A model generated the notes under the pieces. It searched no databases, was not told the origin of the DNA, and saw nothing but the letters and a program-made list of their open reading frames with translations. A stretch of 64,000 nucleotides of DNA from Hypomesus transpacificus (lineage: Eukaryota > Chordata > Actinopteri > Osmeriformes > Osmeridae): assembly GCF_021917145.1 (NCBI RefSeq), contig NC_061062.1, positions 6,716,160-6,780,159 on the forward strand, given 5' to 3'. Positions within the stretch are counted from its first letter, which is position 1. Each line of letters starts with the position of its first letter. Position numbers and translations under genes: made by a program. Below, piece by piece: positions 3,105 to 44,791 of this stretch.

Positions 3105-3230
3105 CTATTGGCTGAGCAGGTGCTGACAAGCTTGATGCATCTCTCTGGGGGCGCGGGGAGGAGGGGGGAGGGAGGAGGGAGGGGCCGGGCATACTGCATA
3201 AAAGCCGAGGTTCTGCAGCATCACTGAGCT
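3105..3230 (+). promoter_or_regulatory. Core promoter of the internexin-like gene
   Basis: A TATA-like element (cataaaagc) lies at about 3197-3205, preceded by a GC/GGGA-rich tract (3148-3190) and an inverted CCAAT box (attgg) near 3109-3113. The distance to the ATG at 3368 gives a 5'UTR of roughly 140 nt. The placement is inferred from motif spacing only. Confidence 0.5.
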
Positions 3231-3367
3231 GGTGCAGTGCAAACACGCTCGTTCATCCTCACCGATGGTGTGCAGAACAAGGGGGACTTCAAAAAACTTC
3301 TGAAACCAAAACCAAAACATCCACATTATTTCATAAACAAAGAAAAAAAAATAGAAAAAAATCCATC

Positions 3368-5423
3368 ATGAGCTTCGATTCTCACACCTCCTACCGCCGC
3401 CCCTGGGACAGCTACAGAGGCTCCCGACCCACCAGAACCTCCATGTCCTCCTTCTCCTCCTCCTCCTCCCGGGCCCTGGCGCCGGGAAGGCGGCCCATGT
3501 GGCCTTCATCCTGCCTGCCGGACGCATCGGAGCGGGTGGACCTGGCCCAGGCCTCCTCCCTGAACGCCGAACTGCTGGGGGTGCGTGCCCAGGAGAAGGA
3601 GCAGCTGGTAGGGCTGAACGACCGCTTCGCCACCTACGTGGAGAAGGTGAGGAGCCTGGAGCAGCACAACCGGGTCCTGCTGGCCGAGCTGGAGGTGCTG
3701 CGGAGGCGGCAGCGGGAGCCGTCCCGCCTGCGGGGGCTGTACGAGGGGGAGGCGCGCAGCCTGAGGGCCCAGATCGACGCGGAGAGCGGCGAGAAGATGC
3801 GCGTGGAGGCGGAGAGGGCCTACCTGCGGGACGTGCACCTGCAGCTGAGGGAGCGCTGCGGGGAGGAGGAGCGCCAGCGCCGCGGCGCCGAGGAGACCCT
3901 GCGGGGCGCCCGGGAGGAGCTGGGCCGGGCCGTGCTCGCCAACTGTGGCGCGGAGGCCAGCGTGATCTCCCTGACCGAGGAGATCGCCTTCCTGAAGAAG
4001 GTGTTCGCGGAGGAGCAGGTGGCACTCCGGGCCCAGCTGCAGGCCGCCAGCGTGGACGTGGAGGTGGAGGTGTCCCGGCCCGACCTGTCCGCCGCTCTCC
4101 GGGAGATACGCGTCCAGTACGAGCGGCTGGCCAACAACAACATGCGGCTGGCCGAGGACTGGTACCAGAGCAAGCTGGCCGGCGTGGCGGAGATGGCGAG
4201 CAGGAACACGGAGGCCGTGCGGGCCGTGCGGGAGGAGACCATGGAGTACCGGCAGCTGCTGCAGTCGCGCTCCTCGGAGATCGAGGGGCTGAGGAACGTC
4301 ATCGAGTCCCTCCACAAACAGCTGGACGACTTGGAGGACTCTCAGGGTCAGGAGGTTGCCAATTACCAGGTACAGGACCTCAGTTAGGAGCACACAAAGT
4401 TAGGACACTTTATGTCCTTTTTTATTGATCCAAAACAACATACTATAAGTGCATTTAGTAAGTACGGTGGATTCAAAAGGAGCACAAGTGCAAAGTCACA
4501 CAGGGTTTCAGCAGTTGGAGCCAAGGAACTGTCAGTTTTTTTTACCAGTCACAGTGCGACAATTACATCTCAACCACATTATTACATCATTCTGATGATA
4601 GGACAGTGCAGTAATACTGACTAATGACTTAGGACGTGAAGACAGTGTGTGTCTGAGGAGCTAGCCAAGCTAGCAGAGAGAGGAGGCTCCACAGAGCAGT
4701 CCGACTAGGTTAGACAGCTGAGAAAGAAGCCATGTTGGGTCCTCAGGACACAAAGGATATTCTGTAGCTGTGAGCACTACTAATATGCTCTCTGCACCAG
4801 ACCCTCCCCCCTCCCGTAGCTTAGCCAGACACATGAGGCTCCCTGCTTAGGGGAGAAAGAGTCCAAGGTGACTGTCGACAAGTAACTGATGTAGAAACAT
4901 AATAAATGGTGTGCGATGAAGAAGATGCACGAAAGCACAATGTACTTATGAATGATTTTGTGCTGCACTTTCGATGCGCCATTTGTATGTCACCTGGATG
5001 ACAGCTAAATGAATCAAATGTTAAATGTGACATGAATCAATATTACAATCGTTCAGTCATATGCCCTTGGTGTGGTTACTTGGAATGCTGATTCCAGTTC
5101 CATAGTTTTGACCCGATTTTGGTTCACGTCCAGGTGAGGGTGAATGATCTGGAGAGGAATATCAATGACGCAAAGCAGGAGATGGCTCGCTATCTGAGAG
5201 AGTATCAAGACCTCCTCAATGTCAAGATGGCCCTGGACATTGAGATAGCTGCGTATAGGTAACAACTTGATATGTGTGTTTATCCTCATCATCATAGTTA
5301 TTGCACAAATCCAGCAATTGATATATTTAATATATCTGTATCTTGTATCTCCACAGAAAACTCCTGGAGGGCGAGGAGTTCAGACTGACCTTCTCCACTC
5401 TCCCGGCCCTTCCCTTCCACTAA
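3368..5423 (+). CDS. ina: Alpha-internexin-like neuronal intermediate filament protein, short tail
   Basis: Three exons with GT..AG junctions: 3368-4369, 5134-5258 and 5357-5423, giving 397 aa. A Ser/Arg/Pro-rich head (about 1-65) precedes an alpha-helical rod. The rod begins at the helix-initiation motif ([16 protein letters not shown], about residues 79-94) and ends with the termination motif ([13 protein letters not shown]) spanning exons 2-3. Exon positions and the 19-residue stretch after exon 1 align without gaps to my recollection of human INA. The fold and role are type IV: coiled-coil dimers that assemble into 10-nm neuronal filaments. Oddity: only about 13 residues ([14 protein letters not shown]) follow the rod, whereas INA, NEFL and related proteins carry long acidic tails. 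The gene is very GC-rich in exon 1. It could instead be a divergent fish neurofilament paralogue. Confidence 0.85.
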
Positions 5424-14569: not shown

Positions 14570-17500
14570 TTAGGAGATCTGGTTGTTGAGTTGTCCGGGG
14601 TACTTATCAAAACTCCTCTCAGCCTCCTCGCTGAGCGCATCACCTGGGGGCAGAGCAGCAGAGTGGCGTTCAGAGGCAACGGATGAGCCGAACATGGGGG
14701 TGCTTCTCATTGGATACCAAAAAATCCTCAAATGTATTCCAGATCTCTGAGGCTCACCAATATGGCAGTTATGAAGCCAGATGCGATGACCGTCATACTT
14801 GCAGTTGCACTTCATGGCGTTGTTAGTGAAGTCACTCTCTGCCACTTCGAAATTTGGATTTATAACAATCTGAAAGAATTAGGAATACACATTATCGGCT
14901 CAACAGGTCATCAATAAATAAGGCAAATGAAACGAGTTGCAGACAAGCCGTCTGTCCACCTGCAGGATATAGTTCCCAGGCTTGATGTCTGTGATGTCGA
15001 TCCACTGGCAGTCGATGTCGTGGCGATACAGATCCCAGCACCCCACCGTGATGCCCTGCTCGCCGAAGTTGGCACACTCGTACCTCTTGGAGATACCTGG
15101 AGGACCACGGGACAGCTTCTGTTAGCGCTCAGAGCTCCCTGCTGTCGTGTTTATACATGCACGTGCTTAACCACAGAAGAAGCCTTCCTCAGAGTAAACA
15201 TGCTCCTCAGTAGATGTAGCTGAATGATAGAGCGTTGACTGTACTCTCCTCAGAGTAAACACGCTCCTCAGTAGATGTAGCTGAATCATAGAGCGTTGAC
15301 TGGACATGAAGCGGTTACAGGTTCACATCCCTATCTGTGTGTCACTTTGGACAAAATGCTAACGGAACACATTATTATAAACTCCCACTCTCCTCATTCA
15401 TGTTGTATAAACTCCCACCCTCCTCATCTTATATAACCTTCCACTCTCCTCATGTGAGGTGAACACCACTCTCCTAAGGTTATATTTAACCTCGCTCAGC
15501 AGTCCAGGGCCACCCAGGCTCACCTTCAAAGCACTCCGTGTCCTCCAGACAGAAGCTGGCCTTGTGGCCCTCGGCCACCTTGCTGCCGTTGGCCGACAGC
15601 AGGTCATAGTGGGTGAAGATGTCCATGCTGTGGTAGTGGCTGAGAAGGACAGAGCAAAGACAACTCATGAGCCCATTTCATTCCTTAACAATAATATGAC
15701 AGGTCTGTTGGCCCCATCCATGTGAATGTGTAGCTGAACCGTGCTGAGTGCACCGCTCGGCACGCAGATGAAGGAGCTTCCTGTACCCGTGGCAGGCGTG
15801 CCACACCCAGGAGTGGCGCCCGGCCTTGGGTCTGAAGTCGGCCCGGCCGATGTTGTGTATCTGGGAGGAGAAGCGGAGCAGCCTGCGGTGGCCGTAGGGC
15901 CAGTTGGCCTTGGAGGCAGACTTGGAGAGGCAGTCCTCCTCGGCGGCGCAGTAGAGCATGTGCAGCGGACGGTCCTCGATGTAGACGCTCGACTGCACCA
16001 GGGGCGCGTTCAGGACCAGGTCGGACGCCGCTGGACGCACGAGGAGGTGGACAAAGGGATTATTATCAGTTAGCACATGAGATGTATGGAGATGTATGGC
16101 ATTTCATATTGCAGTTGAGATATGATCATTGTTGCACAGTGCCTGGTAGCTGAGATGTGGTCACTTTGCACTGGTAAATACAGACCATTGCTCGACTCCA
16201 ATCACCAAAACAACGTTAGAACTATGAACTCCAGATTTGATATTTTTCCGCTGTATTTTCTGTATACACCACTTGTATAGTGTTTAGGAAAAATGCAGTG
16301 AATAGCAAAATGTTAGCTAGATAATGATGTGGCGAGGGTGAGGTTGCGTGTGGAGAATCCGCAGGGATGCCAACTCACTCTCGGAGCAGATGACCCCAGC
16401 TGAGAACTTGGCCGCAGCCTTCTGGCAGGTGACAGACTTGTGGTGCTGGCAGTGATCCAGCGACATCTCACTTCCTGTGCACCTCACACCACTCATTATC
16501 ATCTCTGTTACGTTACTGCTGTCCCAGTACCAGGTTTCCTTTGGGGGGGGGACAACATATACACACACACACACACACAGGCACACACAGCATCCATCAG
16601 GAGATTAGCAAGACTCAAGGCTCTCTCAGGAGTAAATAAGTGTGTTAAAAATGTGTTTGTAAGTCATTCATAGTCAAACGTATTCTTGTGTATACACCAT
16701 GTCACACCTCCCCAAGCCTTATTCTTTATAATACGATAAACCTGCTTAAGTCTTCAGTAGGACTGACAAATCCTGGGGTAACAGCTCGGTCCGTGATATT
16801 ATACAAGGAGATTACTGAGAAATATGACTAATGTGAATGAAGACGACACTTGACAGGTGCTTCTCGGCCCCCAGACTGTGCTGACCTGGTGTGGCCTCTG
16901 TCCTCAGTCCTACTCACAGTGATGGCATGCATGGAGTATCCCAGCCCTAGCTGTCGACACACCACCATGGCCTCCTTGGTGGTCCAGCGCTCGCTGCACA
17001 CTGTGCCCCAACGTGACCCAACCAGAACCTCCACACGGCCCTCATAGTAGGTCCGGCCGCCCACTATTCGGACCTGCACACAGGCCCTGAGGGGAGTCAG
17101 TCAGAGGGCACTTCCTGTCCCACCTCTGACACTTCCTGTCTGAGCTCCCTCGGTAAACAGTTGCAGTTTGCAAATGCAGCCCTAGCTGGGGGATTAGCCG
17201 CAGAGCTAGGTCCCCCTCACATGGTTTATAATTTTTTTGGTTGGTTTGTTGGTAACCAATGTGAGGTTGCCACCTTGCAGGTTGGGATTGGCCTATCCAC
17301 CAAGCAAAGGCGTTTAGATAAGAGGTTCATGGAATGCGTAGTCCATGATTAGCATGGTAGCAGGTGAATTAACTTACTTTTATTCTTTGGTTAGCATGTT
17401 AGCAAGTTAGCCTCATTGCAGGCCATGATTAGCAGGTTAGCGGGGCTAAGTTAACCTACTTGCAAACCATGGTTAGCGTAGCCTAGCCCCAGCTGCCTGC

Positions 17501-20500
17501 AGACCACCATGGCCTCCTTGGTGCTCCAGGCCTCCCCACAGATCAGACCCCAGCTCTGAGTCCCGTTGTTGTCTGTGGCCAGCACCTCCACGCGGCCCTC
17601 GTAGGGCGTCCGGCCCCCCGTGAGGCGGATCTGTGTGGAGCAGATGTGTTAGCGAGCGCGGAGCAGAGAAGAGGGGGTTCTGTGTGGGCTGGACGGACGC
17701 AGGGAGGTCCACCTGACACACTGTGAGTGGGGAGGGTCTAAAGCTCTTTGTTTGTGATGCTGATTTACTGTTTATGAGATGAGGATGTTCTTTTCTCTTT
17801 TCATCTCTCATCACAGTATAATCTCCACAAACAAAGTCATAAGCGGCACTTACACTTGGTCATTCATGTGAAAACAATTAAGAAATAACTGATCCGTTAG
17901 TGTGTGATGATATCAGTTAGCGACTAGAGATCGATACAAAAATAGGTTCAAATAACATTATAACAAATAATCAAAAATAAACACAGAATTTATCTCTACC
18001 AAGAAAACTCAAATAAGAGTATTCCTGGTCAAAAAGGTCATAAACATGTGTTAGCTGTTTCAGGTATGTGTGGTAAGCAGGTCCACTCTGACCGAGTTCT
18101 CGACCCCCATGTAGGGTGTGTTGCATATGATGGCAGCGTCCTCCACGTGCTGGCAGTCCTCAGACGTGATGTTCTTGTAGGGGCAGTTCCAGATGGACTT
18201 CTCCTGGCCCAGACACTTCACCTCATTCATGTGGATGGGGCCCATGCCTACAGCACAAACACAACCTCAACCTCAGTATGTACGCAAGCTTAGTGCAAAC
18301 AACCTCATTCTTGTGGATGGGAGCCATGCCTACAGCACAACCTTAACTTTAAGTCAGGTACTTTCCAAAACTAAATAAAAAAACACGTTTCCTCCTGAAG
18401 GAGGAAAATATGCATGAATTCCTCCTCCTGACCATGTCTTAGCAGGTCTGTATATATCTTATAAAGTGAGTCAGGTGGCTGAGCGGTTAGGGCATCGGGC
18501 TAGTAATCTGAAGTTTGCCAGTTCAATTCCCGGCTGGGGCATTGTGTCCTTGGGCAAGGCACTTCACCCTATTTTCCTCGGGGAGAATGTCCCTGTACTT
18601 ACTGTAAGTCGCTCTGGATAACAGCGTCTGCTAAATGACTAAATATAGATGTAATTTAGTTCATTAGAATGTGTGCTGCGTGTCCCTGCGGGGGAGGCTG
18701 CAGACCTTGGCCCATGCGGGCTCCAGTGAGGGCTTCCTTGGCGCTGCCGAAGCCCAGCTCCCTGCACACCACGCTGGCCGACTGCAGGTTCCAGCGGTCG
18801 TCACACACTGTGCCCCACTGGCTGTTCCTCAGAACCTCCACACGTCCCTCCCCCAGCTTGGCCCCCCCCTTCAGCCTCACCGTGCTCTGGGGAGGGGGTG
18901 GGGGTGAGGGTGGAGTAAACAGGAGGAGAAGGAGAGGGTAAAGAAGTGTAGGGGTGAGGAGGGGGTGGTGAGGAGGGAGGAGAGGAGGAAAGAGGAATAC
19001 AAGAGAAGGGGAGAGGACACAGTTATTTGACCACCCTGTCAGGACCGGACAAGAACCAACACGTGGGACCCTGCTGCCAGGGCGGGCTCCTCACCGACGT
19101 CTTGGGCTTCTTCTTCATGCCGCTGGGCGTGTACTGGGGGCCGGGCACGCAGCTGACCACGGCCGGCATCCCGCCCCGGCAGAAGGACGTGGCGTTGGCC
19201 TGGTTGAACTCCAGCGGGCAGGCGGCCAGGTGCACCTCCGTACCCACGCAGCCCACCGAGTGGAGCAGGAAGACGCTCTTCTGACGCTCCGCATGCAGCC
19301 TGGGGGGGGGGGTCGAGGGTAACAATGTCACAGGGGTCAAGGGGGGGAGGGGAACACAGGGTTAAGAGAGGAAGGGTGAGACTGGTTAAGAAGGGGGAGG
19401 AGGGGGTAAGACAGGTTTAAGAGTTATGAATGTGTCCTGTGGCTTGGTTTCCAGTAGCAGCAGCAGCTGTAAAACAACAACCCTATTCAAATATGACAGA
19501 CATTTTTGGAGAGTGACGGATTAACATTCATAAATAATATTAGAACGGAATCAAAGTAACTTTGTTTCGCTGTATTAGGTCAATACATCTTCGAAGAGAA
19601 CAGACTGTGCCAGATGTTATATATCTCTCTGGCAGGAGGCCTGGACTTACACAACGCTTATCTCATCAGTCCTCAACAAGAATGTCTCCGAGAGACGTTG
19701 CAGTCTAGCCAGATGTTCCTCCAGAACGCCTCAAACTGCTGCCTGTTTTGAACTGGTGACCGCATTAAGCGGAGAGACGCGAGGGAGGTAGGAAATAAAC
19801 GCAATTGTATACATTTAGCAGACGCTCCCATCCACAGAACCATACAGACGGGGAATTTTGAACCTTCGACCTCTAGATCTGCAGTCGAACGCTCAACCAC
19901 TGAGCTGTATCCATCCCTGTCTTCTAGATGCACTGACAACAGGTATAACCACGGCAACAACTCGCTCCAGGCTGCTGAGTGAACACTGGAGGAGTGTCAA
20001 CTGAAGGGTGTTTATAATAATACTGTGTTCATTTAGCAGATGCTTTTCTCCAAAGCACCTTACAGAGGGGGATTCAAACCTGAGACCTCTTGTTCTGTAC
20101 TCTACTATTGAGCCCAACTGTAAGTGTACTCAGCCTGCCCATCCCTCCCTTCTCCAGGTGTTTGATCTCACTCTCAGAGTCCTGAACTAGACAGATTTAT
20201 GGCCATTATTCCAATGCCAGTATCAGGAGTAAAATCACTATCAAAGTCCACAGATTCAGTCGTGCCGGCAGCCATTTGGATACATCTCATGAGTCAGGTA
20301 CCTACAGGTAGTGGACACGGCTGATCAAAATGGCCGATCCAGATTACCCAGATTACCTTTTGTTTGGCCCAGAGTGGCTCTGCCTAGTCCTAGATTTAGC
20401 TTTAGCTTTGAGAGTCTGCCTGCAAGGTAAACATGTGTTAGAGGGGTTTACAGAAGGGATGAGATGAAGACAGTTATAGTCACACGTTAAGTTACATGAA

Positions 20501-30005: not shown

Positions 30006-34726
<4,721 letters not shown>

Positions 34727-43496: not shown

Positions 43497-44720
43497 CTAC
43501 TGATTGTATTTCTCCTCTCGTTCCCAGGGAACCGGGTCATCCTGATCCTCCTCCACTGCAGTGTTCCTGCGCTCGGTCCAAAAAAGTGCCACATCCGGAA
43601 AGGTCTTTCCCGTACCGTCGACAACTTCTGGCCTCGCGGACGAGGATGCCCTTTCCAGCTCCAGCGCAGAGTTAATAACCATCGGTCCTGTCTCTGATCC
43701 GTTGCCCTCCGCTTTAGGACCTTGGCTTAGGGCGATGTGTTTGGAGGTTCTGCAAGTTAGAAAACGCCACAGGGCAGCCAGGCCCTGACGCACATCGTCG
43801 TATATGCTCAGGAAGATGATTGGGGAAAGAGCGCTACATGCATACAGGAACACCTGTGCAAAAATGACCAGACCAACAGGCGGTTTAACGTCTCCAAGCT
43901 TGATCCATGTCCATGTTCCCCATTCCGGCAAGAGCATGAAAGCGTTGGCGCCGCTGACACAGAGCATCAGAGGGATAGCCTTTGTCTGGAGTTGCGGACT
44001 GGCTGCGTGGTTCATTGTGGACTTGGTGTTGCGCAAGGCTCTGGTGTAGAATGCAAGACTGAAAAAGATCGGAATAACAAAAGTAGCAGTTGGGTAGATC
44101 TTGTTGAAGACGTTCATGAAGTCGGAGGCGCAGATCGGCATGTCATAGACGCAAAGGTCGATGTCTCCATATGGTTTTAAAGAAACAAACATCACTTGGG
44201 GTATTGGAAAGCTCATGGACGCCATCAGTATGAACACCAGAGCTCCGTACACTTTAGTCGTATTAAACAAGTCGCTTTTAGACGTGCTTGTAACAAAGTT
44301 ATGTCTAGCGTTGGTCGAGGCTGCAAGGACCAGCGATTTGGCCACCAGGCACGAGTGCTGAAACCAATCCGCTGTCTTGCAGACGAAAGTCCCCAAAGTC
44401 CAAGTCTGTCGGTAGTATGTCATCGCGCGCACAGGAGCGCACAGCACCAGGATCAACAAGTCGGTCGAGTTTAGGGTGACGAGGAGCGCTTTCAATTCGG
44501 ACCCCCTTCCAGTTCTAAAATCGTGAGTGAGAATCAGTAGCACGAGCAGATTCCCCAATCCTCCTGTCACACTAATCCCTACTAGGATGGCAGGTAGAAC
44601 CGTCTTGGTGTTTTCCTCTGGGAGCAGTTGAGCCCCTCCAGCAAAGTCAAGAAATGACATGTTTTTCGGCCAATCAATATTCATATTTTTGTCCTTTCTA
44701 TTTCCAGCAATATTTTTCAA
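43497..44720 (-). CDS. gpr151: Orphan G-protein-coupled receptor, GPR151-like
   Basis: Single-exon gene, 407 aa, with seven hydrophobic segments. Visible class A landmarks: N in GNLLVL (TM1), D in STDLLIL (TM2), a Cys in FVCKTADWF (TM3) pairing with the Cys in DLCVYDMP (second extracellular loop). Departures: the TM3 end reads TNARHNF with no DRY motif, and TM7 has SPIIFLSIYD instead of NPxxY. The N-terminus (MSFLDFAGG) and the far C-terminus (PDVALFWTERR, DDPVPWERE) match my recollection of human GPR151, whose relatives include the galanin receptors. In mammals and fish GPR151 is expressed in habenular neurons. Two Met codons upstream of MNIDWPKN make the exact start uncertain. It could be a fish-specific paralogue. 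Confidence 0.85.
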   Translation of the reverse strand: MKNIAGNRKDKNMNIDWPKNMSFLDFAGGAQLLPEENTKTVLPAILVGISVTGGLGNLLVLLILTHDFRTGRGSELKALLVTLNSTDLLILVLCAPVRAMTYYRQTWTLGTFVCKTADWFQHSCLVAKSLVLAASTNARHNFVTSTSKSDLFNTTKVYGALVFILMASMSFPIPQVMFVSLKPYGDIDLCVYDMPICASDFMNVFNKIYPTATFVIPIFFSLAFYTRALRNTKSTMNHAASPQLQTKAIPLMLCVSGANAFMLLPEWGTWTWIKLGDVKPPVGLVIFAQVFLYACSALSPIIFLSIYDDVRQGLAALWRFLTCRTSKHIALSQGPKAEGNGSETGPMVINSALELERASSSARPEVVDGTGKTFPDVALFWTERRNTAVEEDQDDPVPWEREEKYNQ

Positions 44721-44791
44721 AAACGTTCAATTTGGAAGTGCTGACATGAACCAGCCGCTTCCACCTCCCAGTACAACCCAGATAGAAGGAA

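Follow-up and report, generated by a model that had tools for sequence, protein, structure and literature searches.

LOXL3 is described as an enzyme which cross-links collagen and elastin and is required for the development of palate, spine, eye and ear. Alternative forms of the human enzyme that alter its SRCR region have been reported, namely sv1, which lacks exons 1, 2, 3 and 5, and sv2, in which exons 4 and 5 (SRCR2) are skipped, whereby no exchange of an SRCR4 exon is reported for either variant (PMC6678131). For LOXL2, the recombinant protein was found to be glycosylated at N288, N455 and N644, coming along with better stability and secretion; its extracellular form was reported to be glycosylated at N455 and N644 and its intracellular form to be non-glycosylated (PMC10380739). 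In models of LOXL2, SRCR4 is the one SRCR domain that is rigidly joined to the catalytic domain (PMC6629125). The present work concerns a window of 64,000 nucleotides (nt), i.e., the whole stretch of DNA analysed, from Hypomesus transpacificus (NC_061062.1, positions 6,716,160 to 6,780,159), the minus strand of which carries a loxl3-type gene with two adjacent exons, here termed A and B, each encoding a first half of the fourth SRCR domain (SRCR4). The most likely reading of B is that of a functional alternative exon, and we lean towards the view that it is a real, selectively maintained alternative to A, whereby the choice of one of the two would give two SRCR4 faces differing in a glycan site.

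Pfam searches of the minus strand revealed a LOXL2/3/4-type gene with at least seven SRCR matches followed by four PF01186 matches, which is the layout of the LOXL2/3/4 lysyl oxidases, i.e., SRCR repeats and then the catalytic domain. The following features of this gene are referred to below:

18706..18886, minus strand: first-half exon of SRCR3 of the loxl3-type gene, present in one copy (Pfam SRCR match 18707-18868; sequence and splice sites)
18093..18247, minus strand: second-half exon of SRCR3, constitutive, preceding the A/B pair and ending on a codon boundary
17460..17630, minus strand: exon A with 57 codons, encoding the first half of SRCR4 in phase 0/0 (acceptor cacacag; donor gtaggt)
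17559..17567, minus strand: NGT sequon at exon A residues 22-24, standing over residue 455 of human LOXL2 in the alignment
17074..17459, minus strand: intron between A and B, 386 nt
16918..17073, minus strand: exon B with 52 codons, a candidate alternative for the first half of SRCR4 in phase 0/0 (acceptor tgtgcag; donor gtgagt)
17011..17022, minus strand: short loop VGSR of exon B, without sequon
17087..17088, minus strand: competing AG, 13 nt upstream of the B acceptor
16379..16538, minus strand: second-half exon of SRCR4 (ETWYW...), constitutive, following the pair and contributing an NVT sequon to either isoform
14765..16022, minus strand: lysyl oxidase catalytic exons (four Pfam PF01186 matches: 15783-16022, 15522-15641, 14957-15100 and 14765-14878)

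An earlier note on this DNA had described two complete SRCR4 first-half exons at 17630-17460 and 17073-16918, and both coordinates and lengths (171 and 156 nt) were confirmed, as were phase 0 at both ends, the open frames and the AG before and GT after each exon. The boundaries of A and B are homologous, both exons running in the same phase up to the ETWYW exon as had been claimed. Of the good splice sites ascribed to the pair, the donors bear out the description, both ranking within the top 3% of GT sites in the gene stretch, while both acceptors are moderate (top 12%); all four sites are GT/AG, and the scores derive from a splice matrix not calibrated on H. transpacificus. When placed in the slot between 18247-18093 and 16538-16379, A alone and B alone each give an open product. 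Within the same genome, a tblastn search of the stretch from SRCR3 to the catalytic part identified one SRCR4 first-half exon in each of four paralogues (two loxl2-like and two loxl4-like), hence the doubled exon is special to the window gene in this genome.

Structurally, the pair corresponds to mutually exclusive tandem duplicated exons in that A and B are adjacent, homologous, of like length and equal phase, would swap a homologous region and are both conserved; it differs from them in that exclusivity is part of their definition, whereas for A and B exclusive use is putative. The earlier note knew of no such exon pair described for LOXL3, and a search of open-access main texts found none for any LOXL gene (PMC9741552, PMC4448552, PMC3927612, PMC6678131). 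Likewise, the terms 'lox', 'lysyl' and 'srcr' are absent from the main text of a catalogue of mutually exclusive exons, its supplements lying outside the scope. Within the open-access literature, supplements excepted, an SRCR4 exon pair in a LOXL gene is thus apparently unreported, while the arrangement itself is of a known kind.

The largest difference between A and B resides in the loop following RVEVL, which together with the C-terminal edge (SMHAIT in B, ANHGLQ in A) had been pointed out as the diverged part of B. In A this loop comprises nine residues (ATDNNGTQS) including the NGT sequon; in B it comprises four (VGSR), hence is five residues shorter, and is devoid of a sequon. The asparagine of the A sequon aligns over the glutamine that replaces N455 in the human LOXL2 chain 5ze3, which is an N455Q construct (PMC6629125). 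Both loxl2-like paralogues likewise possess a loop sequon (NNS and NGS); the difference is that both loxl2-like copies possess a single SRCR4 first-half exon, while the loxl3-type site would be removable by splicing. Exon choice would probably introduce or abolish a site for sugar attachment next to the catalytic part. The claim that the swap would alter the domain next to the catalytic module is in line with SRCR4 being held rigidly to the catalytic domain in the LOXL2 models (PMC6629125). Considering the alignment of the sequon with N455 and the position of SRCR4, A may represent the form with a glycosylated loop, and B that with a short, bare loop, of a domain that abuts the catalytic module, whereby both the glycosylation of this protein and its effect are what we infer.

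In the suggested course of events, exon B would have arisen in the loxl3 lineage when the first-half exon of SRCR4 was duplicated in tandem, and a transcript would take either A or B between the second-half exon of SRCR3 and the exon beginning with ETWYW. The enzyme would thus possess one of two SRCR4 faces, that of A with its nine-residue loop and a sequon at the LOXL2 N455 position, and that of B with a four-residue loop and a different edge. A would be the more glycosylated form, and B, next to the catalytic module, may affect how the enzyme is secreted, how stable it is or which partners it binds. If fishes do choose between these SRCR4 faces, two natural isoforms would allow testing what an N455-like glycan and SRCR4 contribute to secretion and to the choice of substrates. 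A second functional difference was considered, as a putative BMP-1 site (GDD, 446-448) has been described in LOXL3 SRCR4 (PMC6678131). At this position A reads GEA and B reads SER; with GDD in neither exon, a BMP-1 cleavage switch between A and B is not proposed. In the human sequence, the BMP-1 site at 446-448 would lie inside the homologue of exon A.

Exon B looks constrained rather than being a long-dead relic, since of the 35 positions at which the four non-loxl3 LOXL SRCR4 exons do not vary B keeps 29, exactly as many as A, and since the nonsynonymous to synonymous rate ratio (dN/dS) of A and B, a comparison the earlier note had called for, amounts to 0.25 (Nei-Gojobori method, NG86; dN 0.31, dS 1.24). 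This value falls within the range of 0.04-0.52 found for other LOXL SRCR4 pairs, with the second loxl4-like gene left out. B retains the two cysteines and the two tryptophans of the conserved pattern and contains no stop, no indel and no lost splice dinucleotide, and its third-position G+C (0.71; 0.84 in A) compares with a G+C of 0.41-0.49 in three introns. Apparently both exons are under purifying selection, as far as one species with synonymous sites near saturation allows this to be read. Neutral evolution was simulated starting from A (assuming a transition/transversion parameter of 2 and one indel per ten substitutions; 5000 runs). At 0.2 substitutions per site, 0.5-0.7% of the runs kept the frame, remained free of indels and retained AG and GT, at 0.6 this held for none of the 5000, and at least 26 of the 29 residues invariant in the four paralogous exons and A were kept in 0.35% of the runs at 0.2. 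As neutral simulations so rarely keep frame and splice sites, long-standing neutrality of B is unlikely, a recent death still being compatible with the data.

Such a recent death would make B a relic, i.e., an old duplicate which was once used, fell silent recently and still looks intact, and it is at this point that the observations weighing against a maintained exon B have to be considered. Under recent decay, frame and splice sites survive in about 26% of the neutral runs at 0.05 substitutions per site and in 6-7% at 0.1, and at least 26 of the 29 residues in 66% and 17%, respectively. B itself keeps 26 of these 29 residues, the three changes being L to I, A to S and Q to T, at positions invariant in the other five exons. 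The synonymous sites of A and B are near saturation (24.1/39.7), so that their dN/dS is rough, and being a pairwise measure it averages over both exons. In the tree described below, the terminal branch of B was flagged as long (0.55, compared with 0.22 for A). The B acceptor scores 4.5 bits and is outscored by the AG located 13 nt upstream (exon start 17086), which reaches 7.8 bits. Finally, both loxl4-like SRCR4 exons lack the loop sequon, hence this site is not universal in SRCR4. Set against a relic are the absence of any stop, indel or lost splice dinucleotide, the standing cysteines and tryptophans, and the number of paralogue-invariant residues kept by B, which equals that of A; a recently silenced B is therefore regarded as unlikely.

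With exon B taken as a maintained alternative to A, mutual exclusion is the weak part of the reading. A built-in mechanism for it was not found in the forms looked for, namely a very short intron, a frame break, incompatible site classes or competing RNA pairs. The intron of 386 nt between A and B poses no steric barrier. Products containing both exons (327 nt) or neither of them are likewise in frame and without stop. Paired intron RNA was ruled out as an exclusion device: pairing between the upstream and the downstream intron (-169.2) was reached by 0 of 30 shuffles, but by 26 of 150 GC-matched window pairs, i.e., not above background; for the upstream/middle and the middle/downstream introns, 4 and 26 of 30 shuffles, respectively, were as low. 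Mechanisms that enforce exclusion are found in some cases of mutually exclusive exons and are not required.

These findings would also be expected if B was used non-exclusively, with A constitutive and B an occasional cassette (included together with A, or via the upstream AG) in an aberrant or message-destroying form. The open double-inclusion frame, the missing steric hindrance and the background level of flanking intron pairing agree with this, as does the better-scoring upstream AG, use of which shifts the reading frame and leads to a stop at codon 15. However, the double-inclusion product would comprise one and a half SRCR domains and thus an unpaired half-domain that is unlikely to fold, and products that are only poisoned or misfolded would hardly account for selection on individual residues of B, so that non-exclusive use appears doubtful. 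Where B serves as an alternative to A, the better-scoring upstream AG could act as a brake on B, or could mark B as weakly spliced; the splicing of B and the one-at-a-time use of A and B are themselves putative. As an observation in its own right, TGCATG, the RBFOX consensus, occurs inside exon B (16931-16926, minus strand) and is the sole copy within 18400-16300; this is weak evidence. Upstream of the pair, a stretch of 40 nt (36/40 by eye; 18340-18301 versus 18258-18219, both minus strand) nearly repeats the start of the SRCR3 second-half exon together with its acceptor; this near copy is located some 80 nt upstream of the genuine sequence, and the decoy acceptor scores 0.8 bits compared with 5.3.

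Concerning the naming of the gene, a PF01186 search of the genome gave 40 matches at nine loci, five of which possess adjoining SRCR matches (C3, which is the window, C56, C158, C90 and C116), while for the other four (C10, C16, C19 and C22) no adjoining SRCR is among the matches listed. The genes on C56 and C158 are loxl2-like and those on C116 and C90 loxl4-like, so that a single loxl3-type gene, that of the window, was detected among the lysyl oxidases with SRCR matches, versus two of each other type. Its catalytic exon shares 58 and 59 of 81 residues with the loxl4-like pair and 51 and 50 of 80 with the loxl2-like pair. Names were given by similarity to human LOXL2 (5ze3) and by elimination rather than by a tree with human LOXL3 and LOXL4. 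The window gene is here termed loxl3-type, a third LOXL type beside the two pairs, and by elimination and comparison with human LOXL3 (YANHGLQETWYW) it is a candidate LOXL3.

The origin of exon B was traced by whole-genome searches and by a tree of 13 rows, from which SRCR1, SRCR2 and non-LOXL SRCR sequences were left out. A and B agree at 34 of 52 aligned positions (tblastn E 1.9e-20), a likeness that chance would not produce, and among the 98 matches listed for the B protein, A is the best after B itself. Next in the list are the SRCR4 exons of the two loxl2-like genes, an SRCR exon at another place (on C22) and the SRCR4 exons of the two loxl4-like genes, so that six of the first seven listed matches are first-half exons of LOXL SRCR4 (B, A and those of the four paralogues). 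Owing to its short, SRCR3-like loop, B was also considered as a copy of the SRCR3 exon, which is ruled out by the tree: B is placed on the SRCR4 side of the SRCR4/SRCR3 split with a branch support of 100/99. Its grouping with SRCR4 marks B as a duplicate of an SRCR4 exon, the adjacent SRCR3 exon being discarded as its source. Within SRCR4, the free tree places B outermost (support 38/0), a sister pair of A and B is neither supported nor rejected (p value of the approximately unbiased test, p-AU, 0.457), and joining B with the five other SRCR4 rows to the exclusion of A gives a p-AU of 0.491.

This leaves room for the idea that B was copied in from another SRCR gene instead of being a duplicate of A. 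A pool of donors does exist, as the genome holds at least 154 SRCR matches including large SRCR arrays, and B shares V30, S32 and A55 with the loxl2- and loxl4-like exons where A has I, G and G. Against it, the closest genome matches of B among those listed are LOXL SRCR4 exons with A first, five residues (T8, Y10, K38, Y51 and H54) are common to A and B only among the six LOXL SRCR4 exons, and the two exons are adjacent with equal phase and equal boundaries; an origin of B from a foreign SRCR gene is hence considered highly improbable. Independent of this, clusters of SRCR exons were seen at C116:69189-130630, C21:2060298-2131864 and C188:28369-48217, several with identical scores, which suggests recently expanded SRCR arrays. 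Scanning viral contigs with B gave 21 pattern matches, none of which was confirmed.

For exon B as a duplicate of A, the age of the copy can be narrowed down. Since the sequences flanking A cannot be aligned with those flanking B, the copy is old rather than recent. The loxl2-like pair shares 47 of 56 residues and the loxl4-like pair 49 of 56, both presumably being teleost genome-duplication pairs, compared with the 34 of 52 for A and B; if rates were equal, the A/B split would be older than either pair, bearing in mind that the branch of B is long. Given the five residues common to A and B only, the split is placed after loxl3 parted from loxl2/4. If human LOXL3 has I and G at positions 30 and 55, the split could predate the divergence of fishes and tetrapods, a lead based on two residues; G32 is uninformative for dating because human LOXL2 also has G there. 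From this a tentative and somewhat unlikely scenario follows in which the pair is ancient: B would have diverged from A in the stem lineage of LOXL3, prior to the gain of I30 and G55 by A, would later have been lost in the human lineage, and would have been kept in fishes as a splicing-controlled SRCR4 N-glycan switch that sets enzyme secretion and the SRCR4 partners beside the catalytic site.

Outside the loxl3-type gene, ten frames of the window were scanned, seven of which gave no profile match above the cut-off. The neighbouring coding stretches with a match are 3116-4387 (plus strand; intermediate filament, PF00038), 33450-33947 (minus strand; pantothenate-kinase-like Fumble, PF03630) and 43497-44726 (minus strand; rhodopsin-family receptor, PF00001).

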